From NCBI GenBank assembly GCA_031460175.1, contig JAVKGW010000003.1, positions 186,001 to 250,000 on the forward strand: 64,000 nucleotides of DNA, in the 5' to 3' direction. Shown here one piece after another: positions 1,469-60,736 of this stretch. This DNA is from Armatimonadota bacterium (lineage in GTDB: Bacteria > Sysuimicrobiota > Sysuimicrobiia > Sysuimicrobiales > Sysuimicrobiaceae). Made by a program: the position numbers and the translations under genes. The notes under the pieces are model-generated. The model had not been told where the DNA came from, did not search any database, and saw nothing but the letters and a program-made list of their open reading frames with translations. Position 1 is the stretch's first letter; each line of letters begins with the position of its first letter.

Positions 1469-2513
1469 GTTTCGGGTCCTCCTGCTGGGCGGAGACGGGA
1501 TCGGGCCGGAGGTGACCGGGGAGGCGGTACGGGTCCTGGAAGCGGTCTCCGGACGATGGGGAATTCGCTTCCAGTTCGAGGAGGCGCCCATCGGCGGAGC
1601 CGCCATCGACGAGTACGGAGACCCCCTTCCCGCCTTGACCCGCCGCAAGCTGCGGGAGGTGGACGCGGTCCTGCTGGGGGCCGTGGGGGGGCCAAAGTGG
1701 GACCAGGGAGAGGTCCGGCCGGAGGCGGGATTGCTGGAGCTCCGCAGGCTCCTCGGGGTGTACGCGAACCTCCGTCCCGCGGTCCTGTTCGACGGCCTGG
1801 AAGGTTGCTCCCCGCTTCGACCGGAGGTGGTGCGGGGGACGGATCTGTTGCTGGTGCGGGAGCTCACGGGAGGTCTGTACTTCGGGGAGCCCAAATTCCG
1901 GACGGAAATGCAGGCGGTGGACACCATGGCCTACGCTGCGGAGGAAGTGGCCCGGGTGGCCCGGGTGGCCTTCCGGGCCGCGGCGCGCAGGCGTGGGATG
2001 GTGCACTCCGTGGACAAGGCGAACGTGCTGGAGACCTCCCGGCTTTGGAGGGAGGTGGTCTCCCGGGTGGCGGAGGAGTTCCCCGGGGTCCGATTGCACC
2101 ACATGCTGGTGGACACCTGCGCCATGGAACTGCTGCGTCGGCCCACCGCCTTCGACGTCATCCTCACGGAGAACACCTTCGGGGACATCCTCAGCGACGA
2201 AGCCGCCGCGGTGGTGGGCTCCATCGGGCTGTTGCCCTCCGCGAGCCTGGGGGATCGTCCCCCCTTTCTCTACGAGCCCGTGCACGGGTCCGCGCCGGAT
2301 ATCGCGGGGAAGGGGATCGCCAACCCCGTGGGGGCCATCCTCAGCGCGGCCATGATGCTCCGGTACTCCTTTGGGATGGAGGAGGCGGCGGCGGCGGTGG
2401 AGCGGGCTACGGAAGCGGTGCTCCGGGAAGGGGTGCGCCCGGCGGATCTCGGGGGATCCGCCTCCACGGAGGAGGTGGGGAGGGCCGTGGCGAAGCGGGT
2501 GGCCGAGGGCTAA
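1461..2513 (+). CDS. leuB: 3-isopropylmalate dehydrogenase
   Basis: LeuB oxidatively decarboxylates 3-isopropylmalate in leucine synthesis. In organisms using citramalate it can also act on erythro-3-methylmalate to give 2-oxobutyrate. The protein has 350 residues, the usual length. It shows GGDGIGPEV at the N-terminus, the signature [14 protein letters not shown], the catalytic Lys in SVDKANVL, and the NAD-binding part [14 protein letters not shown]. The ATG lies inside the end of cimA. leuA, leuC and leuD are not in the window, so the grouping with cimA and ilvD suggests at least a role in isoleucine synthesis. Confidence 0.95.
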
Positions 2514-2530
2514 GACCAGGAGGGATCCGG

Positions 2531-4198
2531 ATGCGCAGCGACCTCATCAAATCCGGTGTTCCGCGCGCGGGGGCCCGGGCCATGCTCCGGGCGGTGGGGG
2601 TACGGGATGAGGATTTCCGGAAGCCGTTCGTGGGCGTGGTGAACACGTGGACGGACGGGATGCCCTGCAACGTGCACCTGAGGGATCTCGCGGAGGAACT
2701 GCGGGCGGGGATGCGGGACGCGGGGCTGGTGCCCTTTGAATTCGGGGCGCCCGCCATCGCGGATGGCATCTCCATGGGAACGCCGGGGATGCGGGCGAGC
2801 CTCATCAGCCGGGAGGTGATCGCGGACGCGGTGGAGCTGGTGGCCCAGGGCTACCTGTACGACGCCATGGTGGTCCTCGTGGGCTGCGACAAGACCATTC
2901 CTGGAGGGGCCATGGGCCTGTTGCGGAGCGGGGTGCCGGGAATGGTCCTGTACGGGGGATCCATCGCACCGGGAGTGTGGGAAGCCCGGAAGCTCACCAT
3001 CGTGGAGGTGTACGAGGCCATCGGGCAGTTTGCCGCGGGGAGGATCGGGGAGAAGGAACTGGAAGCCGTGGAGCGGCACGCGGTTCCCGGGCCGGGGGCG
3101 TGCGGCGGGCAGTACACCGCGAATACCATGGCCATGGCCATGGAGGTGCTGGGGCTTTCCCCCATGGGCTACAACAGCATCCCCGCGGTGGTGCCGGAGA
3201 AGCGGGAGGCCACGCGCCGGGCCGCCTGGGTGCTGCTGGACGCCCTTCGGGCCAACCGCACCCCCCGGGAGTTCCTCACCCGCAACTCCTTCCTGAACGC
3301 CATCGCCGCGGTGGCGGCCACGGGCGGGTCCACCAACGCGGTCCTGCACCTGCTCGCCCTGGCCCGGGAGGCGGACGTGCCGTTGACCCTGGACGATTTC
3401 GACGCGGTAAGCCGCCGCACCCCCGTGATCGCGGACCTGCGGCCCTGGGGGAGATACACCGCCTGGGAGCTCTACGAGGCGGGGGGGACGCGGCTGGTGG
3501 TGCGGCGGTTGCTGGAGGCAGGGCTTCTGGATGGCGACCAGCGCACGGTGACCGGGCGGACCCTCGCGGAGGAGGTGGCGGACGCCACGGAGCTCCCGGG
3601 GCAGCAGGTGGTGGGAAGCGCGGACCGGCCCTTCAAGCCGCACGGCGGGCTTGTGGTGCTGCGGGGGTCTTTGGCTCCGGAGGGCGCGGTGCTGAAGCTG
3701 GCGGGGACGGAGCGGTTGTACTTCCGGGGACCTGCCCGGGTATTCGATGGCGAGGAGCAAGCCCTGCGGGCGGTGCTGGAGGGACGGATCCGGGCCGGGG
3801 ACGTGGTGGTGATCCGGTACGAGGGACCCAAGGGGGCTCCGGGGATGCCGGAGATGCTCGCGGTCACCGCGGCCCTGGTGGGAGAAGGCCTGGGCCCGGA
3901 GGTCGCCCTGGTGACGGATGGCCGGTTTTCGGGCGGAACGCGAGGCCTGATGATCGGACACGTCTCTCCCGAGGCCCAGGTGGGCGGGCCGATCGCGCTG
4001 GTGGAGGAGGGAGATCTCATCACCGTCGACGTGGAGAACCGAAGGCTGGATCTGGAGATTCCAATGGAAGTCCTCGAGGCGCGTCGCGTGCGTTTTCGGC
4101 CCCGCCCCGTTCCGGATCTCACCGGGATCTTCCGCCGCTACGCGGCCCTGGTTTCCTCGGCCTCGGAAGGGGCCGTCCTCCGGCTACCGTCCGCCTGA
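2531..4198 (+). CDS. ilvD: dihydroxy-acid dehydratase
   Basis: IlvD dehydrates 2,3-dihydroxy acids to 2-keto acids, the third common step of isoleucine and valine synthesis; it carries an Fe-S cluster. The start is the ATG after AGGAGGGATCCGG, 17 bases past the leuB stop; the frame is open far upstream but only in the shadow of leuB. The 555 residues begin MRSDLIKSG as in the family. Cluster cysteines are visible in VGCDKTIPG and [14 protein letters not shown], with one more in DGMPCN. The last 15 bases overlap the convergent DUF420 gene, leaving no room for a separate terminator. Confidence 0.96.
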
Positions 4199-44606: not shown

Positions 44607-45941
<1,335 letters not shown>

Positions 45942-46034
45942 GGATCCTCCTCCGCTCCCGAAGAAATCTTACACGGCCCCGGGGGAGCGGATCGAGGGCA
46001 TCCGGAGAAACCGAGCCCCGCCAGGAGGAGTTCT

Positions 46035-46056
46035 GAAACGTTTAGCGAACCGTTTC
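46035..46056. promoter_or_regulatory. LacI-family operator abutting the regulator start
   Basis: The arms GAAACG and CGTTTC are separated by 10 bases, with near-symmetric inner bases (GTTTAGCGAAC), a layout common for LacI-family sites. It ends three bases before the ATG of the LacI-type gene, so binding there would block its expression directly. Confidence 0.55.
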
Positions 46057-46059
46057 ACC

Positions 46060-47052
46060 ATGGCCACCATCAAGGACGTGGCGCGGCTTGCCGGGGTCTC
46101 CCCGGCCACGGTCTCCGCGGTGATCAACAACAGCGCGTTCGTGAGCCCGGCTCTGCGCCACCGGGTAGAGCGGGCCATCCAGACCCTGGACTACCACCCC
46201 AACGCCCTGGCCCGGGGGTTGAAGACGCGCCGCACCCACACCCTCGCCCTGCTGGTCTCCGACATCCGCAACCCCTTCTACACCGCCCTCGTGCGTGGGG
46301 TGGAGGACGTGGCCCGGGAGCACGGGTACACGGTGATCTTGGGGAACACCGACCGGAGGCCCCAGAAGATCCAGCGTTACCTCAGCACCCTGGTAGGCCG
46401 CCGGGCGGAGGGGGTGATCCTCACCCACGTGATCCCCCGGAGCCACCTGGAGGCCCTGCGGCGCCAGGGCCTCCAGGTGGTGTTCGTGGACGTCCGTCCC
46501 CGGCCCCTCTACGCGGATGCGGTGGTGGTGAACAACGAGGAGGCCGCCCGGGAAGCGGTACGGCACCTGGTGTCCCACGGGCGCCGACGGATCGGACTCC
46601 TGGGATTCCGCGCGGGGCTTTCCACGGGGGAGGAACGCCTGGCCGGCTACCGGGGGGCTCTCCAGGAAGCGGGGTTGCGGCCTACGGGGCTGGTGGTGCT
46701 CTCCCGGCTCTCCCTGGAACACGCCCAGGAGGCCGCCCGGGACCTACTCCGGCGGAGACCCGACGGGGTCTTCGCGGCCAACAACACCATGGTGCTGGCG
46801 GTCCTGCGGGCGGCCCGGGAGCTCGGCCTCCGGGTCCCGCAGGACTGTGCCCTGGTGGGGTTCGACGACGTCGAGTGGATGTCCGTGGCGGAGCCACCGG
46901 TGACCACCGTGGTCCAGCCCATGTACGAGCTGGGGGCCACCGGGGCCCGGTGCCTGCTGGATCGCCTGCGGGAGGGAGGAACCCGGGAGCCGCGGCTGGA
47001 GGTGCTCCGCGCGGACCTCGTGATCCGACGCTCGTGCGGGTGTGAGGGCTAA
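46060..47052 (+). CDS. LacI family sugar-responsive repressor
   Basis: A 330-residue regulator: the N-terminal helix-turn-helix and hinge (TIKDVARLAGVSPATVSAVINNS, ARGLKTRRT) and the periplasmic-binding-like effector domain (VSDIRNPFYTALVRGVED, GFDDVEWM) ending RRSCGCEG. ATG 46060 directly follows the operator and has no SD sequence, suggesting a leaderless message. The longer frame starting at 45940 has 40 extra residues without family match. It heads the sugar operon and probably controls it; the inducer is unknown. Confidence 0.9.
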   Translation: MATIKDVARLAGVSPATVSAVINNSAFVSPALRHRVERAIQTLDYHPNALARGLKTRRTHTLALLVSDIRNPFYTALVRGVEDVAREHGYTVILGNTDRRPQKIQRYLSTLVGRRAEGVILTHVIPRSHLEALRRQGLQVVFVDVRPRPLYADAVVVNNEEAAREAVRHLVSHGRRRIGLLGFRAGLSTGEERLAGYRGALQEAGLRPTGLVVLSRLSLEHAQEAARDLLRRRPDGVFAANNTMVLAVLRAARELGLRVPQDCALVGFDDVEWMSVAEPPVTTVVQPMYELGATGARCLLDRLREGGTREPRLEVLRADLVIRRSCGCEG

Positions 47053-47056
47053 CCGG

Positions 47057-48187
47057 ATGTCCAACGCCGCGCTCGCCAGTCTGGACCGCTGGCTTGACCG
47101 CGGCATCCTGCCGCTTCGGCCCACGTATGTGCGCCGGTTTTACCCGGACGGGGGGCGCCTGGGGTTGAGGACCCGGACGGGGGGAGCCCTCCATCCGCGC
47201 CGGCGTTTTTGGAAGCCCGAACGCTGGATCGCCTCCTGCGTTCCGGCCACCAACCCCTCCCCCGTACCGGACGAGGGGATCAGCTTCCTGGCGTTCCGGA
47301 CACCGCTCAGCTGGCCACAGGCGCTCCGTCTGCGCGGGGAGCGGATCCTGGGACCCCGCCACTTCGCCGCGTACGGACCCGACTTCCCGGTCCTTACGAA
47401 GCTGCTCGACCCCGGAGAGCCCATCGCGTTCCATTTCCATGCCCGGGACGAGGACGTCTGGCAGGACCCGGCCCGGTTCGGCCACCGGTTCGGCAAAGAC
47501 GAGGCGTACTACTTCCTCGACGCCCCCAAAGGCCCGGTCCCCTACACCCACGTGGGCCTTTACCCCGGGGTCACGCTCCGCACCCTGCTCCAGGCCATCC
47601 ACCAAGGCCGGGAGCGGACCCTGGAGCTCTCCCCGGTGGTGCATCAGCGGATCGGGGAAGGGTTCTTCGTGCCGGCCGGCGTCCCCCACCGCCCGGGGAC
47701 CGCCCTCACCCTGGAGATCCAGCAGCCCTCGGACGTGTATACCCTGCTGGAGACCACCGCGGGCGGAACCCCCCTGAGGCCCGAACAGATCCATCCCGGC
47801 TTCCCGCACCTGGAGGAGGCTCTGAGGCGATTGGACTTCGAGGCCGCGTGCGCACCGGACCTGCTGGAGCGGAATCGCCTCGCTCCGGAGGGGATCACCC
47901 ACGCCCGGGGCGGGGAGGAGGCGTGGATCTTCCCCCCAAGGCTCCGGAAGTTCAGCGGCAAGCGGTTGGTGGTCCGGAAGCGGTTCGAGAGCGTAGAGCA
48001 GGCACCGTATGCCCTCTTCGTGTGGCGCGGGCAGGGCCGGCTCCTGGGATATCCCCTCCGCCCGGGAACGGAGTGGTTCGTGACCGCGGAAGCGGCATGC
48101 CGTCCGCATCTCTTCGAGGCAGAGGAGACCCTGGAGGTGTTCAAGCTGTTCGGGCCCGATCCACAGACCTACGGACGAAGGGGGTGA
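47057..48187 (+). CDS. mannose-6-phosphate isomerase-like cupin protein
   Basis: A 376-residue protein related to class I phosphomannose isomerases. The cupin metal site is visible in AFHFHARDEDVWQ, GKDEAYYFLD and FVPAGVPHRPG, and a second cupin-like half follows. Catalytic identity is uncertain because the usual Arg motif of ManA is not evident. The ATG at 47057 has GAGGG eight bases upstream; a GTG at 47042 overlapping the lacI stop is the alternative. It sits between the regulator and the transporters, so it likely isomerises a sugar or sugar phosphate. Confidence 0.7.
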   Translation: MSNAALASLDRWLDRGILPLRPTYVRRFYPDGGRLGLRTRTGGALHPRRRFWKPERWIASCVPATNPSPVPDEGISFLAFRTPLSWPQALRLRGERILGPRHFAAYGPDFPVLTKLLDPGEPIAFHFHARDEDVWQDPARFGHRFGKDEAYYFLDAPKGPVPYTHVGLYPGVTLRTLLQAIHQGRERTLELSPVVHQRIGEGFFVPAGVPHRPGTALTLEIQQPSDVYTLLETTAGGTPLRPEQIHPGFPHLEEALRRLDFEAACAPDLLERNRLAPEGITHARGGEEAWIFPPRLRKFSGKRLVVRKRFESVEQAPYALFVWRGQGRLLGYPLRPGTEWFVTAEAACRPHLFEAEETLEVFKLFGPDPQTYGRRG

Positions 48188-48250
48188 GAACGCAGAACTC
48201 CAAGCGCCCTCAAGCACCGAGAACACAGAGTCTGCGAGGGGGTGAATCAC

Positions 48251-49804
48251 ATGAAGGTGGTACGATGGGGCGTGCTGGGTATGGTGCTCCTCTCCGTGGT
48301 GGGCGTGGCGTTCGCCGCGGCCCGGCCCTTCGCGGGCCGTACCGTTACGCTGGGGGTATTCGCAGGAGGCACCCGAGGAGCCATCTCTGGCCCCTTCTAT
48401 TATTTCCGCTCCGCGTGGGAGCAACGCACGGGAGCCAAATTGAACATCGTGGAGATTCCCTTCGATCAGCTTCCCACGAAGATCAAGACGGACCTCATCA
48501 CCCGGGCGGGACGGTTCGACGGATTCGTGCCCTGCGCCACCATCTACGGGGACCTGGTGACCAACAACTGGATCGTGCCGGTGGATCCGTGGATCCGGGA
48601 TCCGCGGTTCCCCCGGTGGGACCCCAACGACATGGGTCCTCCCATCCGGCAGCTGTACCGGTGGGGCGGGCGGCAGTACGGAGCCAACTACGACGCGGAC
48701 GCCTGGGTGCTCTACGGCCGACGGGACCTTCTCAACGATCCCAAGGAGAAGGCTGCGTTCCGGGCCAAGTACGGGTATGAGCTGCGGCTGCCGCAAACCA
48801 TCAAGGAGCTCCTGGACGTGAGCGAGTTCTTCAACAACCGCGACTGGAACGGGGACGGGCGAGCCGACTTCGGCATCGTCCTCCCCCTCAAGGTGAGTGC
48901 CCAGGGGTTCTTCTTCTACCTGGCCTTCGCGGCTCCCTACGTGGTGGTTCCGGGCCCCACCGTGGACGAGTACCACAACGTGTTCTTCTTTAACCCCCGC
49001 ACCATGGAGCCCCTCATCAACTCCCCGGGACACGTGAAGGCCCTGGAGGACTACATCCGGCTCACGAAGAACGGCCCCCGGGCCCAGCTGGGATGGGACC
49101 TCGTGGAGTCCTGGGATCCGTTCCTGAAGGGCAATGCGGCCCTGACCTACAGCCCGGGCGACATCGGCTCCCTCGCCAAGAACCCCGACCGCTCCCGGAT
49201 CAAGGGCAAGCTCACCGCAGGCCCCATGCCGGCCAGCACGGAGTATTACGACCGACGGACCGGCCGGTGGGTCCAGAGGCTCAACCGGGTCGGCAACCTC
49301 CTGGGATGCTCCTGGCACGGGCTGATCAGCTCCCTCAGCCGGAACAAGGAGACCATTTACCACCTGTTCGCGTACATGGCGGAGCGGTCCCGACTCTTCC
49401 AGATCACCACCTTCGGCTGGGGCGGCGTGGATCCCGGGAAGATCTACGACTTCCCGCCGGAGGTGAGCAACGGCCAGGGCACGGGATCCATCCAGGCCTA
49501 CCTCCAGCAGGGGTTCGACCGGCAGGACGCCCTGGACTGGCTGCGGGCCTACTGGCAGAACTACTACCAGATGGATGCCTGGCAGGAGTACCTCCGCATC
49601 CCGGGCGCTCCGGAGATGATCAACAGCCTCGACCTGCACATCAGCCAGGCCCTGGTGGGACGGGAGACGCCCAAGCAGGCCCTGGATGCGGTGGCTCGGG
49701 AGTGGACGGAGATCGTGAACAAGCTGGGCCGGGAGAAGCTACGGCGCGCGTACCAGGAGTCCATCGGCTACGGCAGGCCCGCGCCCCGGTACCGGCCGCG
49801 CTAG
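48251..49804 (+). CDS. ABC transporter solute-binding protein, CUT1 (family 1) type
   Basis: A 517-residue extracytoplasmic binding protein. It begins with a Sec signal peptide (MKVVRWGVLGMVLLSVVGVAFA, cleavage near AFA-AA) with no lipobox cysteine. The mature part has the family-1 carbohydrate-binder layout with many Trp and Tyr residues (YRWGGRQYGANYDADAW). ATG 48251 follows GAGGGGGTGA; the upstream GTG three codons earlier overlaps that site. The two permeases follow at once. The ligand is probably an oligosaccharide or polyol. Confidence 0.85.
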   Translation: MKVVRWGVLGMVLLSVVGVAFAAARPFAGRTVTLGVFAGGTRGAISGPFYYFRSAWEQRTGAKLNIVEIPFDQLPTKIKTDLITRAGRFDGFVPCATIYGDLVTNNWIVPVDPWIRDPRFPRWDPNDMGPPIRQLYRWGGRQYGANYDADAWVLYGRRDLLNDPKEKAAFRAKYGYELRLPQTIKELLDVSEFFNNRDWNGDGRADFGIVLPLKVSAQGFFFYLAFAAPYVVVPGPTVDEYHNVFFFNPRTMEPLINSPGHVKALEDYIRLTKNGPRAQLGWDLVESWDPFLKGNAALTYSPGDIGSLAKNPDRSRIKGKLTAGPMPASTEYYDRRTGRWVQRLNRVGNLLGCSWHGLISSLSRNKETIYHLFAYMAERSRLFQITTFGWGGVDPGKIYDFPPEVSNGQGTGSIQAYLQQGFDRQDALDWLRAYWQNYYQMDAWQEYLRIPGAPEMINSLDLHISQALVGRETPKQALDAVAREWTEIVNKLGREKLRRAYQESIGYGRPAPRYRPR

Positions 49805-49813
49805 GGGGGAACC

Positions 49814-50677
49814 GTGCGGGATGAGGGGGTCAAGTGGGCACTGCTCCTGCCCGCGGTGGGGTGGATCTTGACCTTCACCGTCTACCCCCTCGTCTTTTCC
49901 CTGCTCCTCTCTTTCCAGAACTGGAACCTGACGTCTCCGCCCACCTGGGCAGGGTTGGCAAACTACGTGCGGGCTGTGCAGGACCCCCGGACGCACAACG
50001 CGCTCCGGGTCACGGGTCTCTTCGTGGGGGCGACGGTCGCCGCAGAGCTCCTGTTGGGGTTCGCGCTCGCCCTGCTCTTCCACCGGCCCATGCGGGGGAT
50101 TCGCCTTCTGCGGGCGGTCGTGGTGGCACCCCTGTTTACCTCTCCCATCGCCCTCGCCTTCCTGGGCATGATGCTCTTCCACGAGGAGGACGGGCCCATC
50201 GCGCATCTCGTTCGGGCCGTGGGGGCCGGCAAAGTCCACTGGCTCTCGGACCCCACCACCGCCCTGGGGTCCGTGGTGCTCCTGGACATCTGGCAGTGGA
50301 CGCCTTTCGCCTTCCTCGTGTTCCTGGCGGGCCTCGCGGGCGTCCCGCAGGAACCCATCGAGGCGGCGATCGTGGACGGTGCGGGGCGGTGGGCTCTTTT
50401 CCGACACGTTTTGCTTCCCCTGCTGACGCCGGTGATCGTCACCGCCCTGCTGTTCAAGCTTATCTATTCCGTGAAGGTCTTCGACCTCGCGTTCGGACTC
50501 ACCGGAGGGGGGCCGGGGATCTCCACGGAGGTCCTGGCCCTTTACATCCACCGACAGGGCCTGGAGTTCTTCAATCTCGGGTACGCCTCCTCCCTGTCGT
50601 ATATCTTTCTCGTCCTGGTGTCCCTGACATGCATCGGTCTGGTGCTTCGCGTGCGGCATCTGTACGAACGTCTCTAG
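49814..50677 (+). CDS. ABC sugar transporter permease, MalF-like
   Basis: A 287-residue inner-membrane permease with six predicted helices. The EAA loop that contacts the ATPase reads EAAIVDGAGRWALFRHVLLPLL. The GTG start is 9 bases after the binding-protein stop. It forms the channel with the next gene. No ATPase of the MalK type is in the operon, so a shared one must serve. Confidence 0.88.
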   Translation: MRDEGVKWALLLPAVGWILTFTVYPLVFSLLLSFQNWNLTSPPTWAGLANYVRAVQDPRTHNALRVTGLFVGATVAAELLLGFALALLFHRPMRGIRLLRAVVVAPLFTSPIALAFLGMMLFHEEDGPIAHLVRAVGAGKVHWLSDPTTALGSVVLLDIWQWTPFAFLVFLAGLAGVPQEPIEAAIVDGAGRWALFRHVLLPLLTPVIVTALLFKLIYSVKVFDLAFGLTGGGPGISTEVLALYIHRQGLEFFNLGYASSLSYIFLVLVSLTCIGLVLRVRHLYERL

Positions 50678-50709
50678 CCGTTCGCCCGGCCCGTGGACTG
50701 ACGCGCCGG

Positions 50710-51540
50710 ATGGAGCGGGCGGCGCTGGGAGCGCTGCTCCTGGCCGTCCTGATTTGGGTCCTGTTCCCCCTCTACTGGGCCGGGATCACCTCCCTCAAGG
50801 AGCCCACGGAGACCTTCCGCCCCACCCTCCTCCCCTTCGTGCAGTTCATCCCCACCCTGGCCAACTGGCAGGACCAGTTCCGACTGGCGGGGCGGGACAT
50901 CCTCCGGGATCTCCAGAACAGCTTGCTCGTCGCCGCAGCGAGCGCCTCCCTGGCGCTCCTGCTCGGGAGCATGGCGGGTTACGCCCTGGCCCGCTTTCCG
51001 TTTTACGTCGGTCCCCTTCGCAATCACGACATCGCCACCTGGTTCCTCTCGCAGGTCATCCTGCCCCCCGCGGTGGTCGTCATCCCCTTCTTCCTGTTCA
51101 TGCAGCGGCTGGGCCTCCTGGACACGCCTCTCGCCCTCATCCTCGCGCATACCACCATGAACCTGCCGCTCGCCACCCTGCTCATGCGTGACACCTTCCT
51201 GAGCCTTCCCGTGGAGCTGGAGGAGGCCGCCCTGGTGGACGGGGCCAGCCGGCTACGCGCCCTCGTGCACGTGGTGCTGCCCCTCGCAGCCCCTGCACTG
51301 GTCTCCACGGGAATCCTGGCCTTCGCGTTCTCCTGGAACGAGTTCATCTACGCCCTCACCCTCACGTTCGAGCGGGCCACCACCATTCCCCTCCTGATCG
51401 CGGGGGCCAAGATGAGCCAGGGGATTCAGTTCTGGTTCGTGTCCGTCCGGGTGCTGCTGGCCCTCCTGCCCCCCGTACTCCTGGCGTTCGCCGTCCAGCG
51501 GTACGTGGTGCGGGGCCTCACCCTGGGCGCGCTGCACTAA
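50710..51540 (+). CDS. ABC sugar transporter permease, MalG-like
   Basis: A 276-residue permease with six helices and the EAA loop EEAALVDGASRLRALVHVVLPLAAPAL. The C-terminal FSWNEFIYALTLT is typical of MalG-type subunits. ATG 50710 lies 32 bases after the first permease with no clear SD, so translation may be coupled. It ends two bases before the PfkB kinase. Confidence 0.88.
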   Translation: MERAALGALLLAVLIWVLFPLYWAGITSLKEPTETFRPTLLPFVQFIPTLANWQDQFRLAGRDILRDLQNSLLVAAASASLALLLGSMAGYALARFPFYVGPLRNHDIATWFLSQVILPPAVVVIPFFLFMQRLGLLDTPLALILAHTTMNLPLATLLMRDTFLSLPVELEEAALVDGASRLRALVHVVLPLAAPALVSTGILAFAFSWNEFIYALTLTFERATTIPLLIAGAKMSQGIQFWFVSVRVLLALLPPVLLAFAVQRYVVRGLTLGALH

Positions 51541-51542
51541 CG

Positions 51543-52481
51543 ATGCCGCAAGTGCTGAGCGTGGGGATCATGGTGGCCGACGTGATCGTCCGGACCGTGG
51601 ACGCCTGGCCGGAGCTGGGACGCCTTCGGTTGGTGGAATCCATCGAGCTGCAAAGCGGGGGCCTCGCCCACACCACGGCCATCACCCTGGCGAAGTTGGG
51701 GGTCCCCACCGCCGCGGTGGGCCGGGTGGGCGCGGACGTCTTCGGCGGCTACCTCATCGAGCGGCTCCGGCACCATGGGGTAGAGCCACACGTGGTGGAG
51801 GATCCCGCGATCGGAACCTCCATCACCGTGGTGGCGGTGGCCCCCGGCGGAGAACGGTCCTTCCTCCACTTCGTCGGCGCCAACGCCCGCCTCGTCCCGG
51901 AAGACGTCCCCGATCACCTCCTCTCCGCGGCAAGGATCCTGCACCTGGGCGGATACTTCGTGCTCCCCGGCATGGACGGACCCCCCGCGGCTCGGCTTCT
52001 GGCGCGCGCAAGAGCCCATGGATGTCGTACGAGCCTGGACGTGGCCTGGGACGCCCGGGGCCGATGGATGGAGGACCTGGCGCCCTGTCTAGCGCACCTG
52101 GACGTCCTGTTCGCCAATCAGGACGAGGTGGCACAGCTGGCGGGGACCCGGGATCCCCAACGCGCCGCGGCCGCATTGCGGGAGCGAGGAGTGGGCGTGG
52201 TGGCGGTGAAGCTGGGCGAACGGGGAGCGTACGTGGACGCGGGCAGCTGGCAGGGGTGGGTTCCCGCATTCGACGTCCCCGTGGTGGACACCACGGGCGC
52301 GGGAGACGCCTTCTGCGGCGGATTCCTGGCCGCCTGGCTTCGGGGCTGGAGCTGGGAGGAGGTTACCCGGTTCGCGAACGCGGTGGGAGCCCTCTGCGTG
52401 ACCGCGGTGGGAGGGACGACGGGCGTGCGAAGCTTCGAGGAAACCGTGGATTTCCTACGCCGGGCGCGGGTTCGAAATTGA
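51543..52481 (+). CDS. PfkB family carbohydrate kinase
   Basis: A 312-residue ribokinase-fold kinase. The N-terminal GIMVADVIVRTV and SGGLAHTTAITLAKLG bind substrate; the C-terminal signature VVDTTGAGDAFCGGF holds the anion hole and the catalytic Asp. The substrate could be a ketose, ketose phosphate or nucleoside; the neighbouring isomerase and transporters suggest a pentose or deoxy sugar. Confidence 0.88.
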   Translation: MPQVLSVGIMVADVIVRTVDAWPELGRLRLVESIELQSGGLAHTTAITLAKLGVPTAAVGRVGADVFGGYLIERLRHHGVEPHVVEDPAIGTSITVVAVAPGGERSFLHFVGANARLVPEDVPDHLLSAARILHLGGYFVLPGMDGPPAARLLARARAHGCRTSLDVAWDARGRWMEDLAPCLAHLDVLFANQDEVAQLAGTRDPQRAAAALRERGVGVVAVKLGERGAYVDAGSWQGWVPAFDVPVVDTTGAGDAFCGGFLAAWLRGWSWEEVTRFANAVGALCVTAVGGTTGVRSFEETVDFLRRARVRN

Positions 52482-52501: not shown

Positions 52502-53650
52502 ATGCCGTTACGGGATCTGCGCGGGCAAAGGGTGCGGCGTTCGGGGGAAGAGCTCGTGCGCCACCTGCAGAGCTTCGTGCTGGAGCCAAAGTTCTCCGTC
52601 GGGGTCTGGTACCTGTCGCCGTTTGCGAGCCGGTTCCACGACAAGTACCAGCCCGACCGGGACATCCGCGCACGGTTGGACCTGGTGACCTCCCTGAAGG
52701 AGTACGGCGTGGTCGGGGTCGAAGCCCACTACCCGGCCGAGGTGAACGAGGACAACCTGGACCTCTGGAAGAGCTTCATCCGCGACACGGGCATCCGTCT
52801 CGTGGCGCTGGCGCCGGGGATCTTCTATGACCGCGAGTTCGAGTTCGGATCCCTCTCCTCTCCGATCCCGGAGGCCCGACGGAGGGCAATCCAGCGGACA
52901 ATCCGCACGCTGGAGCTGAGCCGGGAACTCGGGACGGACGTGACCATCGTGTGGCCCGGGATCGACGGGTACGAGAACCCCTTCGGGCAGAACTTCACGG
53001 ACCTCCGCGCACGGTTCGCAGAAGGGCTCGCGGAAGCGATGGACGCGGTCCCCAGCGTCCGGATCGCGTTCGAGCCCAAGCCCTATGAACCGCGAGGTCG
53101 CATCCTGTTCGGGACCACAGCCGAAGGGCTCCTTCTGGCCCACCGGGTGGAGGCGATGCTGACGAATCCCGACAACCGCCGCCTCCTTCAGGAAGGCCAC
53201 GCCCTGGTCGGGCTCAACCCCGAGACCGGGCACATGCTCATGGGGTACGAGGACCTCGCCTACTCCCTGAGCCTCGCCTGCGAGGAGGGTCGCCTCGCGC
53301 ACACCCACTGGAACAGCCAGCCCCTCGGGAACTACGATCAGGACCTGAACGTGGGTGTCGTCTCGCCGGAGCAGACGGAGGCGGCCCTGTACGCTTTGAA
53401 GATGCACGGGTACGAAGAACACTTCGGGATCGACATCAATCCCGAGCGGATGCCGCCGGAGGTCGCGATCAAGAACTCCATCGATGCCCTCCGGGCGGCC
53501 GCCGACCGGGTCAACCACCTGGACCACGAGCGGATCGTCTGGGCCATCGAGCACCCGGACCGGGCACGCGGATGGCTGGAAGCCTACCTGATCCGGCAGC
53601 GGGCCCGGACTCCGGATGCCCTCCCGCCTTTGTGGGAGCTTGCGCGGTGA
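52502..53650 (+). CDS. xylose-isomerase-family TIM-barrel protein with altered metal ligands
   Basis: A 382-residue protein aligned by eye with actinobacterial-type XylA: YGVVGVEAHYPAE, WPGIDGYENPF, FEPKPYEPRG (E191, K193), GLNPETGH (E241, H244), LAHTHWNSQ, NYDQDLNVG (D279, D281) and GIDINPER (D311) match in order and spacing. Two differences stand out: the Asp of HIDLNGQ is His269, and the HxxD catalytic pair reads H76-Y-P-A. From memory, L-rhamnose isomerases of the Pseudomonas type use a Glu/Asp/His/Asp set, so the sugar may not be xylose. The strong site AAGGAGGGGAGAGG precedes the ATG. It overlaps the FGGY kinase by four bases. Confidence 0.75.
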   Translation: MPLRDLRGQRVRRSGEELVRHLQSFVLEPKFSVGVWYLSPFASRFHDKYQPDRDIRARLDLVTSLKEYGVVGVEAHYPAEVNEDNLDLWKSFIRDTGIRLVALAPGIFYDREFEFGSLSSPIPEARRRAIQRTIRTLELSRELGTDVTIVWPGIDGYENPFGQNFTDLRARFAEGLAEAMDAVPSVRIAFEPKPYEPRGRILFGTTAEGLLLAHRVEAMLTNPDNRRLLQEGHALVGLNPETGHMLMGYEDLAYSLSLACEEGRLAHTHWNSQPLGNYDQDLNVGVVSPEQTEAALYALKMHGYEEHFGIDINPERMPPEVAIKNSIDALRAAADRVNHLDHERIVWAIEHPDRARGWLEAYLIRQRARTPDALPPLWELAR

Positions 53651-55155
53651 GGGGCGCGTTCCTGGGGATCGACGTGGGGACCACCGGCGCCAAGGCGGTG
53701 CTGGTGGATGGGCAGGGTCGGGTCCTCGCCTCGGCCACCCACGACTACCCCCTCTCGGTCCCCCGACCGGGCTGGTCCGAGCAGGAGCCGCAGGCGTGGT
53801 GGGAGGCCACGGTGCTGAGCATCCGGGCGGTCCTCGCGGCCCAAGACGTGCAGGTCGACGGGGTGGGGCTCACCGGTCAGATGCACGGCCTCGTGGCCCT
53901 CGATCCGAAGGGCGAGGTCCTGCGGCCGGCGATCCTCTGGAACGACCAGCGCACGGCCGAGGAGGTCGCGTGGATCACGGAGCGGGTGGGTCCACAGCGC
54001 GTTCTCGAGCTCACCGGTAACCCCGTCCTCACCGGGTTTACGGCACCCAAGATCTGTTGGGTGCGCCGGCACGAGCCTCAGGTCTACCGCCGCATCGCCC
54101 ATGTTCTCCTCCCGAAGGACTACGTCCGGTACCGGCTCACGGGCACACTCGCCACCGACGTCGCGGATGCGTCCGGGACGTCGCTGTTCGACGTGCGCGG
54201 ACGCCGGTGGTCGGATGAGATGCTCTCCGCCCTTGAGATCCCCCGATCTTGGCTCCCGGACGTCTTCGAGTCACCGGAGGTGGTGGGCCGGGTCTCCGAA
54301 GCGGCTGCGGGGCTCACGGGGCTTCGGGCCGGCGTCCCGGTGGTGGCGGGGGCCGGAGATCAGGCAGCCCAGGCGGTCGGAGCCGGGATCGTGCGGAGTG
54401 GGCTTCTCTCGGTCACCATCGGGACATCCGGGGTCGTGTTCGCCCACCTCGACGCGGTACAGGTGGACCCTCTCGGCCGCACCCACACCTTCTGCCACGC
54501 CGTGCCGGGCAAGTGGCACGTGATGGGCGTGATGCTGGCGGCCGGGGGATCCCTCCGATGGCTGCGGGAAGGCCTCGGCATCCCGGATTGGCACCGCGCA
54601 GGGGGCGACCCCTACGCCCTCATGACGGAGGAGGCCGCGGAGGTGCCGCCCGGGAGCGAAGGCCTCCTCTTCCTCCCCTACCTCTCAGGGGAGCGGACGC
54701 CGCACGCGGATCCGTTCGCCCGGGGAGCCTTCGTGGGCCTCACGCTCCGCCACCGCCGGGCCCACTTCGTGCGGTCGGTCCTGGAAGGCGTGGCGTTTGG
54801 GCTGCGCGATTCCCTGGAGATCCTCCGGACGATGGGACTTGCGCCCACCCAGGTCCGGGTCTCCGGCGGAGGGGCCCGCAGTGCCCTGTGGCGGCAGATC
54901 CTCGCCGACGTGTTCGGGACCGAACTCGTGACCGTGGAGGTCACCGAAGGGGCTGCCTATGGGGCGGCCCTCCTGGCCGCTGTCGGGGCGGGTGCGTTCC
55001 CCTCCGTGGAGGCGGCGTGTGACCGGGCGGTCCGGGTCGTGGAGCGCACTGCACCGGGCCCCGGCCGGGAACGGTACGAGGAACTGTACCGGGTGTACGT
55101 CGAACTCTATCCCCGGTTGCGAGATGCAATGCACAGGCTGAGCCGACTCTCCTAG
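53647..55155 (+). CDS. xylB: FGGY family sugar kinase, xylulokinase-like
   Basis: A 502-residue kinase: the N-terminal phosphate-binding GIDVGTTGAKAVLVD, GLTGQMHGLVALD (xylulokinase-type GQMHG), DVADASGTSLFD, and the C-terminal RVSGGGARSALWRQILADVFG. GTG 53647 overlaps the isomerase stop as GTGA, so the ketose made by that enzyme is the likely substrate. D-xylulose is the default call, but the altered isomerase leaves L-xylulose, L-rhamnulose or another ketose possible. Confidence 0.8.
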   Translation: MRGAFLGIDVGTTGAKAVLVDGQGRVLASATHDYPLSVPRPGWSEQEPQAWWEATVLSIRAVLAAQDVQVDGVGLTGQMHGLVALDPKGEVLRPAILWNDQRTAEEVAWITERVGPQRVLELTGNPVLTGFTAPKICWVRRHEPQVYRRIAHVLLPKDYVRYRLTGTLATDVADASGTSLFDVRGRRWSDEMLSALEIPRSWLPDVFESPEVVGRVSEAAAGLTGLRAGVPVVAGAGDQAAQAVGAGIVRSGLLSVTIGTSGVVFAHLDAVQVDPLGRTHTFCHAVPGKWHVMGVMLAAGGSLRWLREGLGIPDWHRAGGDPYALMTEEAAEVPPGSEGLLFLPYLSGERTPHADPFARGAFVGLTLRHRRAHFVRSVLEGVAFGLRDSLEILRTMGLAPTQVRVSGGGARSALWRQILADVFGTELVTVEVTEGAAYGAALLAAVGAGAFPSVEAACDRAVRVVERTAPGPGRERYEELYRVYVELYPRLRDAMHRLSRLS

Positions 55156-55163
55156 GGGCAGGC

Positions 55164-56168
55164 GTGTCGAGAGGGGAATCGCTGGGGGTAGAGCGGGCGA
55201 GGCCACTGGGCCGGGTGGGACGACCCGCCCTCGCCGTGCGATTCCGGGAGCTCAACATCCTGTTGGCTCTCGGGGCCCTCGTCCTCTTCTTCACCTGGCG
55301 GAACCCCACGTTCCTCTCCACCTCCAACTTGAACATCATCCTGCGGGACATGCCGCGCTACACGCTCCTGGGTGTCGGCGAAACGCTCGTGATCGTCACG
55401 GGGGGCATCGACCTCTCGGTCGGTTCGATGGTCGCCCTCACGAACATGGTCGCCGCCTACCTCATGGTGACGTGGAACGTGCACTGGCTTGTGGCGATCC
55501 TCGTGATCCTCACCCTCTCCTGCCTGGTCGGGCTCTGGCACGGGCTGTTCGTGACGAAGCTGGGAGTACCGGCCTTCATCATCACGCTGGGCACCCTGAT
55601 GTGGGCCCGGGGCCTTTCCTCCCTCATGACGAAAGGGTTCATCATCGCTCTGCCGGACACGCCCTACCTCGCCCTGGGACAGGGGGACCTCTTCGGGATT
55701 CCGATGCCCTTCGTCGTCCTCCTCACGGTGGCGGGAGTGTGCGGTGTGATCCTCCACCGCACGGTCCTCGGTCGCCACATGTACGCGGTGGGCGGAAACC
55801 TCCAAGCCGCCCGTGCAGCGGGCATCAACGTGGATGGGGTGCGGATCTTCGCCTACGCGGCCTGCAGCGTGATCGCGGGGATCACGGGGGTGGTGGTTGC
55901 CGCGAGGCTCGGGCAAGGCAACCCGAACGTAGGTGGGGCCTATGAGCTCTGGGCGATCGCGGCCACCGTGATCGGCGGGACGAGCCTCTTTGGCGGGGAG
56001 GGGACGATCCTGGGAGCGCTGTTGGGCGGGGCGATCATGGCCGTGGTCGTGAACGGAATGATCCTCGTCGACGTCTCCGCGTACTACCAGGACATCGTGC
56101 TCGGATTGATCCTCGTGGCGGCTGTTGCCGTAGACATCCTCCGCAAGCGCAAGGAAATACGACTCTGA
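55164..56168 (+). CDS. ABC permease, ribose/xylose (CUT2) type, module 1
   Basis: A 334-residue RbsC-like permease with about ten hydrophobic helices. [23 protein letters not shown] and [19 protein letters not shown] are hallmark CUT2 segments, followed by [23 protein letters not shown] start lies 8 bases after xylB. It is the first of two permease-binder-ATPase sets. Confidence 0.9.
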
Positions 56169-56182
56169 GGGAGGTGATCGGC

Positions 56183-57169
56183 ATGAAGCGCACGTGGCTC
56201 AAATTTCTCGCGGTGGGGCTGGCGGTGGGCCTGGTGGCCTCCGCAGGCATCCCGGCACCCACCATCCGGGTGGTCGTGATTGGGAAGTCCGTGCACCCGT
56301 ACTGGGCCAACGTGGAGCGAGGGGTAAAGGCCGCGGCGCAGAAGCTGGGGGTCCAAGCGGTCTTCTTCGTGCCCCAGAAGGAGGACGTGGCCGCCCAGAT
56401 CAGCACCATGGAGACCTACATCGCCCAGAAGGTGTCCGGCATCGCCGTCGCGCCCTCGGATCCCAAGGCGCTCGGGCCCACCATCAAGAAGGGACGGGAC
56501 GCCGGGATTCCGGTGATCACCCTGGACACCGATGCGCCGGAAAGCGCTCGCCTCGCCTACATCGGCACGGACAACCTGGCGGCCGGGCGGATCGCGGGAC
56601 AGGAGATGCGCAAGCTTTTGCCCCAGGGCGGGAAGGTGGCCATCGGGACCGGAAGCCTCACCGCCCTCAACTCCCTGCAGCGCATCGAGGGATTTAAGCA
56701 GGCCATCCAGGGGAGTCCGATCCGCATCGTGGCCACGAACAACGACAAAGAGGACGCGGCCACCGCGGTGAGCCTCGCGGCTGCCACCCTGCGGGCTCAC
56801 CCGGACCTCGCGGGGGCATACGGGGTGTACGCCTACAACGGCCCCGCATGGGCCCGCGCGGCCAAGGAGGCGAAGGTGGCCGGGAAACTGAAGATCGTCG
56901 CCTTCGACGCCACGGATGAACACATCGCCCTGCTCAAGGAAGGCGCCATCCACGTGCTCGTGGCTCAGCGGGAGTACTTCCAGGGCTACCGGAGCGTGGA
57001 ACTCCTGACCCTCATGGCCCGGGAGGGGGTGGAGCGTGCCCTACGCCTCTACCGGGTCCCTCCCAGCCGCATCGTGGATACGGGTGTGGACGTGGTGACC
57101 CGGGCCACGCTCGCCGCGTACGCCAAGAAGCTGGATGAGCTGGGGATCCCCCACACGTGGAAGCCATGA
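56183..57169 (+). CDS. ABC solute-binding protein, ribose (CUT2) type, module 1
   Basis: A 328-residue periplasmic-binding protein of the RbsB fold. A Sec signal peptide ([22 protein letters not shown]) lacks a lipobox cysteine. The fold is marked by [30 protein letters not shown] and the hinge region [19 protein letters not shown] 56183 follows GAGGGAGGTGATCGGC. It overlaps the ATPase gene by four bases. Confidence 0.88.
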
Positions 57170-57912
57170 GGGGGCCGCTCCTCCGAGCCCGAGGGATCAG
57201 CAAGCGGTTTGGGGCCGTCCAGGCCCTGCAGGACGTGGATGTGGACCTGTACCCGGGGGAGGTCCTGGGATTGGTGGGGGACAACGGGGCGGGAAAATCC
57301 ACCCTCATCAAGATCCTCTCGGGAGTCTACCCACCGGACGCGGGGAGCATCGAGCTCGAGGGTCGGCCCGTACGGTTCACGAGCCCCCGGGAGGCCCGGG
57401 CCGCGGGCATCGAGACCATCTATCAGGATCTCGCCCTCGCGGAGAATCTGGACGTGGCGGGGAACATCTTCTTGGGCCGGGAGCCGGGATACGGCTGGGG
57501 GGTGCTCCGGATCCTCGCTCGCCGTCAGATGGAGACGGCCTCGACCCAGGTCCTCCAGCGGCTGGAGATCCAGCTCCCCTCCGTGCGGACCCTGGTGCGG
57601 CACCTGTCCGGCGGACAGCGTCAGGCCGTGGCCATCAGCCGGGCGGTGTACTGGGAGGCCCGCATCGTCATCATGGACGAGCCCACCGCGGCCCTTGGGG
57701 TGCGGGAGCGATCCCGGGTGCTGGACCTGGTGCGCCGTTTAAGGGATGAGGGCAAGAGCGTACTCCTCATCAGCCACAGCATGCCGGACATCTTCGCGGT
57801 GTGTGACCGGATCGTGGTCCTGCGCCGGGGCCTGAAGGTGGGGGAGCGGCAAACCGCGCAGACCACGGAGGAGGAGATCGTGCGGATGATGATGGGGGTG
57901 GAGGCGGCCTAA
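57166..57912 (+). CDS. ABC ATP-binding protein, single-domain CUT2 type, module 1
   Basis: A 248-residue ATPase with Walker [13 protein letters not shown]-loop IYQDLAL, signature [14 protein letters not shown], Walker [10 protein letters not shown] and switch His in ISHSM. A single domain of this size is the FrcA type, not the duplicated RbsA form. ATG 57166 overlaps the binding-protein stop (ATGA). Confidence 0.92.
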
Positions 57913-57913
57913 G

Positions 57914-58912
57914 GTGGCGCAGAAGACGGATGGGGTCGCGGCCTCTCCGGCCCGAGGGCCACAACGGGTAGAGGTCTCGTATGAGCTTGCCATGCTGGCG
58001 GTGCTGGGCCTCCTCATGGCCGTGGTCGGGACTCTCGCCCCCCGCTTCCTGCAGCCGGACAACCTCTTCCAGATCGCCCGAAACTTCGCCTTCATCGCGG
58101 CCGCGGGGGTGGGCGAGGCCATGGTGATCCTGAGCGGCGGAGGCGGCATCGACCTCTCCGTGGGATCCGTGATGAGCCTGGGGGGTGTGGTCACCACGAA
58201 GCTCCTGAGCCTGGGGTACGGACTCCCGCCCGCCCTGGGAGCAGGCGTGTCGGCCGGACTCCTGGCCGGCGCCGTGAACGGCCTACTGGTCACCCAGGCC
58301 CGCATGACTCCCCTGATCCCCACCCTGGGCATGCTCTCCATCGCGGGGGGGCTGGCCCTGGTCATCACCCGGGGCTTCCCCATCACCGAACTCGGTCCGC
58401 AGGCGGACCTGTTCGTGTCCCTGGGCGCGGGATTCGTGGGTCCAGTTCCCGCGCCCGTGATCTACATGGTGGCCGTGGTCCTCCTGGGATGGTTTCTCAC
58501 CACCCGTACGCCTTACGGCTACGACCTGTACGCGGTGGGAGGGAATGCGGAGGCGGCCCGCCTTGCCGGGATTCCCGTGGACCGGGTGCGGTTCGTGGCA
58601 TACGTGACGAGCGGGGGACTTGCGGCCCTCACCGGCATCCTCCTCGCGGCCCGTCTCTCCGTGGGGGATGCCACCCTGGGACAGGGGATGGAGCTCAGCG
58701 TGATCGCCGCGGTGGTGATCGGAGGGGTGAGCCTGCAGGGCGGACGTGGCTCCATCCTGGGCCTGTTGATCGGCGCCGCCCTCATCGGCGTCCTGCAGAA
58801 CGCCATGGTCATCGTGGGAGTCCCCGCCTTCTGGCAGCAGGTGGTGATCGGAACCACCATCATCGCCGCCGTGCTCGTGGACCGACTGCGGGTACGGCTC
58901 GCGTCTGTATGA
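57914..58912 (+). CDS. ABC permease, CUT2 type, module 2
   Basis: A 332-residue RbsC-like permease, clearly homologous to the 55.2 kb permease ([48 protein letters not shown]). It begins one base after the module-1 ATPase with a GTG. It contains one extra Gly in the substrate segment ([11 protein letters not shown] against GGIDLSVGS), which may change specificity. Confidence 0.9.
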   Translation: MAQKTDGVAASPARGPQRVEVSYELAMLAVLGLLMAVVGTLAPRFLQPDNLFQIARNFAFIAAAGVGEAMVILSGGGGIDLSVGSVMSLGGVVTTKLLSLGYGLPPALGAGVSAGLLAGAVNGLLVTQARMTPLIPTLGMLSIAGGLALVITRGFPITELGPQADLFVSLGAGFVGPVPAPVIYMVAVVLLGWFLTTRTPYGYDLYAVGGNAEAARLAGIPVDRVRFVAYVTSGGLAALTGILLAARLSVGDATLGQGMELSVIAAVVIGGVSLQGGRGSILGLLIGAALIGVLQNAMVIVGVPAFWQQVVIGTTIIAAVLVDRLRVRLASV

Positions 58913-58976
58913 AAGGAGGTGATGTGCACGGAGCAAACCGCGGGCAGGACCCTCATTCCACCTTGGAGGTGAGAAC

Positions 58977-59930
58977 ATGTATCGGGTAAGACTCGCCTTG
59001 GGCCTCGTGATGGGCCTCGTGTTGGCCTCCGCTTCCCTCGCGGGGCAAGCGCGCCGGCCCACCTTCGCCCTGGTCCCCAAGGCCATCAACAACCCCTTCT
59101 TCAACCAGGCACGGGACGGATGCATGGACGCCGCCAAACGTCTGGGGGTGGTGTGCGAGTACACGGGGCCGGAGCGCACGGAGATCGCCCCCCAGATCCA
59201 GGTCCTGGAGGGGCTGGTGAGCCGAAAGGTGGACGGTATGTCCATCTCGCCCGTGGACGCAAAGAGCGTGGTCCCCGTGATCCGGAAGGCCATGGGAAGC
59301 GGCATCCCCGTCATCACCTTCGACTCCGATGCGGCTCCGGAGAGCGGACGGCTGGCCTTTGTGGGCACGGACAACGAAGCCGCGGGCCGCGAGCTGGGGA
59401 AGCTGTTCCTGCGGTTCGCGCCCCAGGGAGCCGTGTACGGGATCATCACCGGGGGACTGGGCGCCCAGAACCTCAACGCGCGGATCAAGGGCTTCAAGAG
59501 CGTGGTCCGGGGCGCGAACTACCGGGAGGTCCGGGGATCTCCCTTCCCCAGCAACGACGACATCAACCGGGCCGTGCAGCTGGTGGAGCAGATGATCACC
59601 GCGAATCCGGATCTGACCGCCATCGTCATGGTGGGTGGATGGCCCCTGTTCGCGCCGGAAGCCTACAAGAACGCGGTCAAGAAGAAGGAGACGGACATCA
59701 AGGCAGGGAAGTTCGTGATCGTCTCCTTCGATACCCTGGAGCCGGAGCTGCGGCTCCTCAAGGAAGGGTATGTGCACGGGTTGGTGGGCCAGCGCCCTTA
59801 CCAGATGGGCGTGCGGAGCATGGAGCTCCTCTACGACATCGTGGTGCGCAAGCGGAAGCCCGCCCGCACCTTTTACAACACCGGTGTGGACCTGGTGACC
59901 AAGGAGAACGTGGACAGGTTCCTGAAGTGA
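58977..59930 (+). CDS. ABC solute-binding protein, CUT2 type, module 2
   Basis: A 317-residue RbsB-fold protein with a signal peptide ([23 protein letters not shown]) and no lipobox. [39 protein letters not shown] and [19 protein letters not shown] mark the sugar-binding fold. TTGGAGGTGAGAAC precedes the ATG. It is only distantly similar to the module-1 binder, so the two may take different sugars. A terminator-like hairpin follows its stop. Confidence 0.88.
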
Positions 59931-59936
59931 GCGGGA

Positions 59937-59961
59937 GGGGGGCCTGTGCGGCCCCCCTTTT
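59937..59961 (+). terminator. intrinsic terminator-like hairpin inside the operon
   Basis: GGGGGGCC and GGCCCCCC form a perfect 8-bp stem with a 5-base loop followed by TTTT, six bases after the binding-protein stop and 22 bases before the ATPase ATG. It probably lowers transcription of the ATPase relative to the binding protein or protects the upstream mRNA end. Confidence 0.7.
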
Positions 59962-59983
59962 CCTTCCCGCGGGCGGGAGACCG

Positions 59984-60736
59984 ATGCAGCTCGTGGAGAT
60001 GCGAGGCATCCGAAAGCGGTTCGGGGCCGTGGAGGCGCTGCGCGGGGTGGATCTCGTCCTGTACCCGGGGGAGGTCCTGGGCCTTGTGGGGGACAACGCC
60101 GCCGGAAAATCCACCCTCATGAAGGTCCTCTCCGGCGCCTACCAGCCGGACGAAGGGGAGATCCTGTTCGAGGGGCGCCGGGTACGCTTCACCACGCCCG
60201 CGGACGCCCGGGCCCTAGGAATCGAAATGGTCTACCAGGACCTTGCCCTGTGCGAGAACCTGGATGTCTCCCAGAACATCTGGTTGGGACGATGGCCCCG
60301 TCGAGGACTGCTCGTGGACCGCTCCCGCATGGACCAGGAGGCCCAGCGCGTTTTGGAACGGCTCGGCATCGCGGAACTCCCTGTCCGGAGCGCGGTGGTC
60401 ACCCTCTCCGGTGGACAGCGGCAGAGCGTGGCCATCGCCCGTGCCCTCTCCTTCAACCCCAAGGTCCTGATCCTGGACGAGCCCACCGCGAACCTCTCCC
60501 CCGCCGCCACCCACCAGGTGCTGGCCCTGATCCGCGTCCTCCGGGATCAAGGGGTGTCCTGCATCTTCATCAGCCACCGTCTGCAGGAAATCCTCCAGAT
60601 CGGGGACCGGGTCATGGTCCTCAAACAGGGACGCAACGTCGGGGTCCGGCGGGTGACGGAGACCACCGAGGAGGAGCTCCTGGAGCTCATCATCGCGGGG
60701 GATCGGCCACCCGCAGCCCGCGAGCGGAAAGGCTAG
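59984..60736 (+). CDS. ABC ATP-binding protein, single-domain CUT2 type, module 2
   Basis: A 250-residue ATPase with Walker [24 protein letters not shown], signature [14 protein letters not shown], Walker [10 protein letters not shown] and switch His FISHRLQ. It is a close paralogue of the module-1 ATPase ([14 protein letters not shown] against [14 protein letters not shown]). No good SD precedes the ATG, though GGGCGGGAG is near. Last gene of the sugar operon, three bases from the convergent dehydrogenase. Confidence 0.92.

Follow-up and report, generated by a model that had tools for sequence, protein, structure and literature searches.

A candidate aldose isomerase family with a mixed XylA/RhaI active site, encoded beside xylulokinase in Armatimonadota and other phyla

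The isomerase gene and its operon

The window analyzed here is a 64,000-nt stretch of contig JAVKGW010000003.1 from an Armatimonadota bacterium (assembly GCA_031460175.1, positions 186,001 to 250,000); all features below lie on its forward strand. The operon of interest includes a LacI-family regulator (45940-47052), the true start of which is probably further in. This gene is followed by a ManA-like protein of 381 aa (47042-48187), a sugar ABC transporter (48242-51540) comprising a binding protein (48242-49804), a permease (49814-50677) and a second permease ending at 51540, the binding protein and second permease being named by reading, and a PfkB-family sugar kinase (51543-52481). Twenty bases further on begins the gene studied here, ISO (isomerase; 52502-53650), which encodes 382 aa. 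The GTG start of the next gene, an FGGY kinase of the xylulokinase (XylB) type (53647-55155), overlaps the ISO stop codon by four bases (GTGA). An earlier note, made from the sequence alone, had described ISO as placed with an FGGY and a PfkB kinase, and both proved to be its immediate neighbors. Two ribose-type ABC sets follow (55164-60736), with permease, binding protein and ATPase genes starting at 55164, 56174 and 57157 in one, and a permease at 57914, a binding protein at 58977 and an ATPase ending at 60736 (by reading) in the other. No transketolase gene was found between 45940 and 60736 by reading together with Pfam and NCBIfam matches.

The ManA-like protein is conserved in a genome of the same genus; it matches mannose-6-phosphate isomerase (1qwr) weakly (E 8e-5) and, at E 1e-3, nothing in either Pfam or NCBIfam. 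None of the transporter proteins received an NCBIfam assignment over cut-off. For one downstream binding protein the closest model was the rhamnose-binding RhaS (108 bits, cut-off 342), and the ATPase at 57157-57912, with its 251 aa, is half as long as RbsA. The operon is damaged in the same-genus genome G001 (locus L069), through gene decay or an assembly error: the match to ISO ends at residue 234, that to XylB starts at residue 199, and the ManA-like gene and the PfkB gene are each spread across more than one frame.

The ISO ORF runs from an ATG at 52502 to a TGA at 53650 and is preceded by a GGAGG-like stretch. Searches of genome contigs yielded 17 relatives, confirmed by tblastn, from Chloroflexota, Armatimonadota, Planctomycetota and an unplaced bacterium (57-72% identity), and a genome search added further members (52-86% identity) in the window's phylum and beyond. 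Taken together, these findings establish the ORF as real. The family is patchy in the window's phylum (4 of 43 genomes) and rare in that of genome G062 (3 of 350), and a plasmid search returned only relatives under 60% identity.

ISO belongs to the superfamily of AP_endonuc_2 (PF01261; 73.5 bits, gathering score 31.1). Its best NCBIfam model was class I XylA (TIGR02631), at 93.7 bits against a cut-off of 447; the L-rhamnose isomerase (RhaI) models scored 25.3 of the required 646.75 bits (TIGR02629) and 43.6 of 531.35 (TIGR02635, RhaI_grampos). The best single sequence match in the PDB was 3ktc, a putative sugar isomerase of Pectobacterium (5e-25), followed by class I xylose isomerases. In the superfamily tree the ISO clade (support 100/100) stood beside the XylA group (98/94), with RhaI and ISO2, a second family described below, apart; the last such tree retained 10 of the 18 ISO rows, the long-branched L005 being among those dropped. 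By sequence, ISO is a family of its own, one that the curated XylA and RhaI models do not cover and that standard annotation does not recognize. No named family of this kind was found among the titles and abstract openings searched, which covered few subscription journals.

The AlphaFold model of ISO (pLDDT 84.4, pTM 0.88) matched 3ktc (Z 32.3, 324 residues aligned, 3.0 Å), class I XylA (for example Streptomyces 1mnz and Thermus 1bxb; Z about 31-32, about 2.6 Å) and L-rhamnose isomerase (L-RhI; P. stutzeri type, 2hcv; Z 30.2, 316 residues aligned, 2.4 Å). The top matches, 3ktc and XylA, are tied, and the model points to a shared fold, which by itself shows no function.

Active-site residues compared with XylA and RhaI

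In class I XylA, metal 1 is described as bound by Glu181, Glu217, Asp245 and Asp287 (PMC8070043), and metal 2 by Glu217, His220, Asp255 and Asp257, plus Lys183 (residue roles in PMC8070043 and PMC11194214). Alignment placed E191, K193, E241, H244, H269, D279, D281 and D311 of ISO at XylA E181, K183, E217, H220, D245, D255, D257 and D287, respectively. The metal-2 set is complete in ISO, comprising the bridging E241 with H244 (53222-53233), D279 with D281 (53336-53344), and the lysine of E191-P-K193 (53072-53080). The metal-1 set retains E191, E241 and D311 (53432-53434) and has H269 (53306-53308) in place of Asp245, the XylA motif HIDLNGQ reading HTHWNSQ. Apart from K193, these are the residues that the earlier note had named, and in the printed alignments all sit where it had put them. 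Its account of their spacing also holds, since the intervals from E241 to D311 (3, 25, 10, 2 and 30) are identical to those of XylA, whereas the interval from E191 to E241 is 50 residues rather than 36 because of a 14-residue insertion. This insertion (residues about 222-235; 53165-53206) is specific to the family, was modelled as a confident helix (223-230), and contains four positions, N225, L229, G232 and H233, that are invariant in the family alignment.

The His54-x-x-Asp57 pair of XylA is replaced, as had been noticed, by H76-Y77-P78-A79, with H76 kept and an acid one place further on at E80 (52727-52741). The family form of this motif is HYPxE, which matches HIPWD of L-RhI. In an alignment of 18 full-length ISO sequences, of which the 17 others are 52-73% identical to that of the window, H76, Y77, P78, E80, E191, K193, E241, H244, H269, D279, D281 and D311 are invariant, as are N271 and others. 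Within HYPxE position 79 alone varies, being N in 15 of 18 sequences, A in the window, I in L024 and D in L005. An aspartate at the site of H269, which would have spoken against the earlier reading, occurred in none of the 18 sequences. Since the deviant residues are invariant throughout, they are not a sequencing accident. R44-F45-H46 is likewise invariant and coincides with the lowest confidence in the model; by analogy with L-RhI, which has a flexible lid between its first strand and helix (PMC10908623), it may form a substrate lid.

ISO and class I XylA, its sister clade, thus have in common the equivalents of H76, E191, K193, E241, H244, D279, D281 and D311 and the motifs NPExGH and EPKPxEPRG; they differ in the histidine for Asp245, the non-aspartate at Asp57 and the insertion, and are 22-25% identical by structural alignment. 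The structural metal of L-RhI is described as held by Glu228, Asp261, His288 and Asp328 (PMC10908623), a set of Glu, Asp, His and Asp for which ISO has Glu, Glu, His and Asp. The motifs of P. stutzeri L-RhI along the alignment are LHIPWD, EHK, LVDLGHH, GGFHFND, YGDDDLD and HMIDQ. The suggestion that ISO carries a rhamnose-isomerase-like metal set therefore stands in part: the structural-metal histidine and the H-x-P-x-acid motif are common to both enzymes, but E241 is the glutamate of XylA where L-RhI has aspartate. The Pectobacterium protein 3ktc and its Pantoea and Streptomyces relatives differ from ISO in lacking the catalytic histidine and in having aspartate at the positions of both H269 and E241, and fall in another clade.

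The mixed XylA/RhaI metal set of ISO is real, but its histidine proved less distinctive than had been supposed. Across the superfamily alignment, histidine occupies the Asp245 site in ISO, ISO2, RhaI, an XylA-like group, XylA homologues from the window's order, and rhizobial and Deinococcus rows, and aspartate is confined to XylA proper and the 3ktc-like Streptomyces/Pantoea pair. In the sample aligned, histidine is the common state and aspartate the special one. Because histidine is so widespread at this site it is not diagnostic, and H269 was rejected as a mark of a rhamnose-type enzyme.

Xylulokinase linkage and distribution of isomerase types

The window kinase scored 588.6 bits against the XylB model TIGR01312 (cut-off 380), compared with 166 bits for ribulokinase and 75.8 bits for rhamnulokinase (cut-off 528), and the PDB protein closest to it is XylB of E. 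coli (2itm). By score, the kinase linked to ISO is therefore XylB and not the rhamnulokinase that accompanies RhaI. An FGGY kinase adjoins ISO or lies no more than 8 kb away in 14 of 21 carrier genomes (G000, G001 [broken], G026, G038, G048, G062, G063, G065, G066, G067 [fragment], G068, G072, G074 and G076), the match in G048 being weaker and below cut-off. No kinase was found near ISO in the other seven (G061, G064, G069, G070, G071, G073 and G075), three of which have the gene close to a contig edge. Genome-wide, XylB exceeded its cut-off in 16 of the 21 carriers, XylA-I in one and XylA-II in none; in G061 no XylB scored above 94 bits. The single genome with XylA-I, G074, has ISO together with a genuine XylA-XylB pair and, since both are kept, the two isomerases may not be equivalent there. 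G026 has, some 8 kb away from ISO, a genuine RhaI accompanied by a separate FGGY kinase, so that this genome is already provided with an enzyme for rhamnose.

In a tree of 39 XylB-type kinases, from which four duplicate loci (L072-L075) were left out, ISO-linked (11) and XylA-linked (9) kinases were interleaved. A supported clade of 23 rows holds all 11 of the former and five of the nine latter, the remaining four XylA-linked kinases falling outside; the L067 kinase was counted as ISO-linked by hand, its ISO gene lying in the neighboring stretch L066. The window kinase is 57-72% identical to ISO-linked kinases and 59% identical to the one beside the genuine XylA in G074. The simplest reading of these sequences would be a single kinase function, acting on D-xylulose.

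Other genes recur near ISO. An IolE-like TIM-barrel gene is present at L022, L025, L026, L027, L029, L032, L037 and L070, and five of these eight loci also have a Gfo/Idh/MocA oxidoreductase resembling levoglucosan dehydrogenase (at L032, 390 bits against 650).

The co-occurrence of isomerase types was surveyed in 301 genomes of Chloroflexota, the phylum of G074. Over cut-off, XylB was present in 141 genomes, XylA-I in 57 and XylA-II in 12; ISO2 was found in 19 and ISO in 4, the latter count being the three matches at E 1e-60 among the 350 genomes of the phylum of G062, all of which are among the 301, plus G074. The scarcity of XylA-I in Chloroflexota weakens the absence of XylA from ISO carriers as evidence in its own right, and for this reason the XylB-positive subset and mutual exclusion within it were used instead. 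All genomes with XylA-I, XylA-II, ISO2 or ISO fall within the 141 XylB-positive ones, and only G074 has two isomerase types. When the types were shuffled over the XylB-positive genomes, a mean of 14.6 doubles was obtained and none of 20000 shuffles gave as few as one, a statistic that ignores genome relatedness and to which ISO contributes just 4 of the 301 genomes. This near-exclusion supports, without proving, a shared function of the four types. XylB alone is no proof of xylose use, since 84 of the 141 genomes are without XylA-I and 50 are without all four types; the latter 50 suggest that yet other XylB partners may exist.

ISO2 is a second uncharacterized HYPxE family found beside XylB kinases in genomes lacking XylA (for example L142:2551-3606, L143:about 2200-3271 and L132:5090-6148). 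It adjoins XylB in 13 of its 19 genomes, none of which has XylA-I or XylA-II over cut-off. All 12 rows aligned, representing 11 genes since L143 and L162 contain the same one, have the motif HYP[GNT]E, the metal-1 histidine and DDD, with Asp and His where ISO has E241 and H244. ISO2 thus resembles ISO in its HYPxE motif, metal-1 histidine and XylB neighbor, but is only 29% identical to it, has aspartate at the E241 site as in RhaI, lacks the insertion, and groups with RhaI at moderate support. The free tree separates ISO from ISO2, although an AU test does not reject their union in a single clade (p 0.064), so that HYPxE may have had one origin or two. At L142 the oxidoreductase gene (Gfo/Idh/MocA) before ISO2 encodes a protein 66% identical to one upstream of ISO in L032. 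ISO and ISO2 therefore appear to be alternative solutions to a single step.

Proposed function and its alternatives

The identity of ISO as a metal-dependent aldose isomerase, the XylA-like reading originally proposed, is well supported and remains the best one. From the conserved residues we infer the chemistry, metals and sugar as follows. ISO would be a two-metal aldose-ketose isomerase of the XylA/RhaI superfamily, in which H76 would open the sugar ring. E191, E241, H269 and D311 would hold the static metal, which would bind O2 and a neighboring sugar oxygen, and the mobile metal, with its water, would sit between E241, H244, D279 and D281. The hydride would move from C2 to C1 in a metal-mediated shift assisted by K193. 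E80, one place beyond Asp57 of XylA, probably acts as the acid partner, as the equivalent aspartate of L-RhI may likewise do. The ketose would pass to xylulokinase, giving D-xylulose 5-phosphate for the pentose phosphate pathway. On this evidence ISO is rather probably an aldose-ketose isomerase feeding XylB, with D-xylose as its most likely substrate because the ketose would go to the xylulokinase whose gene overlaps that of ISO; it would then be a non-orthologous stand-in for XylA. Counting against this reading are the missing counterpart of Asp57, the XylA-XylB pair of G074, the low XylB score in G061, the seven carriers without a kinase near ISO and the RhaS-like binding protein. A different sugar, as the earlier note had raised, is possible, but the gene partners argue for D-xylulose as product.

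The XylB evidence bears on the product alone and not on the aldose, so that another aldose whose ketose XylB accepts must be considered, chiefly D-lyxose, which would give D-xylulose and fit xylulokinase equally well, or D-ribose or D-arabinose, which would give D-ribulose. Such a substrate would accord with the retention of a true XylA besides ISO in G074, and with the broad specificity, including D-allose, described for L-RhI (PMC10908623), which has the same histidine and H-x-P-x-acid motif. The large excess of the xylulokinase over the ribulokinase score and the near-exclusion with XylA-I and XylA-II, which suggests the same role, make this alternative unlikely. Moreover, D-lyxose is rare in nature. 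Less likely again is that ISO is an epimerase, or acts, in concert with the upstream oxidoreductase and second TIM-barrel gene of some Chloroflexota, on a phosphorylated or keto-glycoside intermediate. The oxidoreductase and IolE-like genes do precede ISO in several loci, and the oxidoreductase is 66% identical between one ISO locus and one ISO2 locus; the pair is absent from the window's operon, however, and ISO, unlike single-metal epimerases, retains K193, the ring-opening histidine and every ligand of both metals.

Two narrower assignments meet stronger objections. The metal-1 histidine, the likeness of HYPxE to HIPWD and the weakly RhaS-like binding protein could be taken to indicate an L-rhamnose isomerase in the strict sense, which is very improbable given the glutamate at position 241, scores far below both RhaI cut-offs, a kinase far closer to XylB than to rhamnulokinase, the separate RhaI set in G026 and the grouping of ISO with XylA rather than RhaI. 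A D-apiose isomerase of the ApsI type is harder still to credit. It is brought to mind by a distant Streptomyces relative (L151) that sits with a split transketolase, an FGGY kinase and pectin enzymes, the split transketolase and FGGY kinase being the gene set described for the D-apiose pathway (PMC13001218). The L151 protein belongs to another clade and is without the catalytic histidine, and its kinase is GlpK-like (364 bits, against 161 for XylB). The linkage of ApsI to a split transketolase and an apulose kinase is not seen at the window, where transketolase is absent from the operon and the kinase is XylB-like.

Returning to the reading of ISO as a D-xylose isomerase, a wider proposal can be put forward more tentatively, at a little under an even balance of belief. 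ISO and ISO2 may both be unrecognized D-xylose isomerase families that take the place of XylA next to xylulokinase across several little-studied phyla, with a mixed XylA/RhaI active site (static-metal histidine, and HYPxE for HxxD), such that the textbook signature of Asp245 and His54-Asp57 would not be required for isomerizing xylose. Xylose isomerase is used industrially and serves as a model for the metal-mediated hydride shift. If the proposal is true, equivalog models miss xylose use in the carrier genomes, as 20 of 21 ISO carriers and all 19 ISO2 genomes are without XylA over cut-off; the families would also provide a natural test of which residues in the XylA signature an isomerase needs, and would widen the choice of enzymes from which xylose conversion could be developed.

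A separate observation concerns class I XylA homologues from the window's own order. Those at L006, L007, L008, L009 and L015 have histidine for Asp245, within GIHLN or GLHLN. The homologue at L006 scores 391 bits against the XylA cut-off of 447 and is consequently missed by equivalog annotation.
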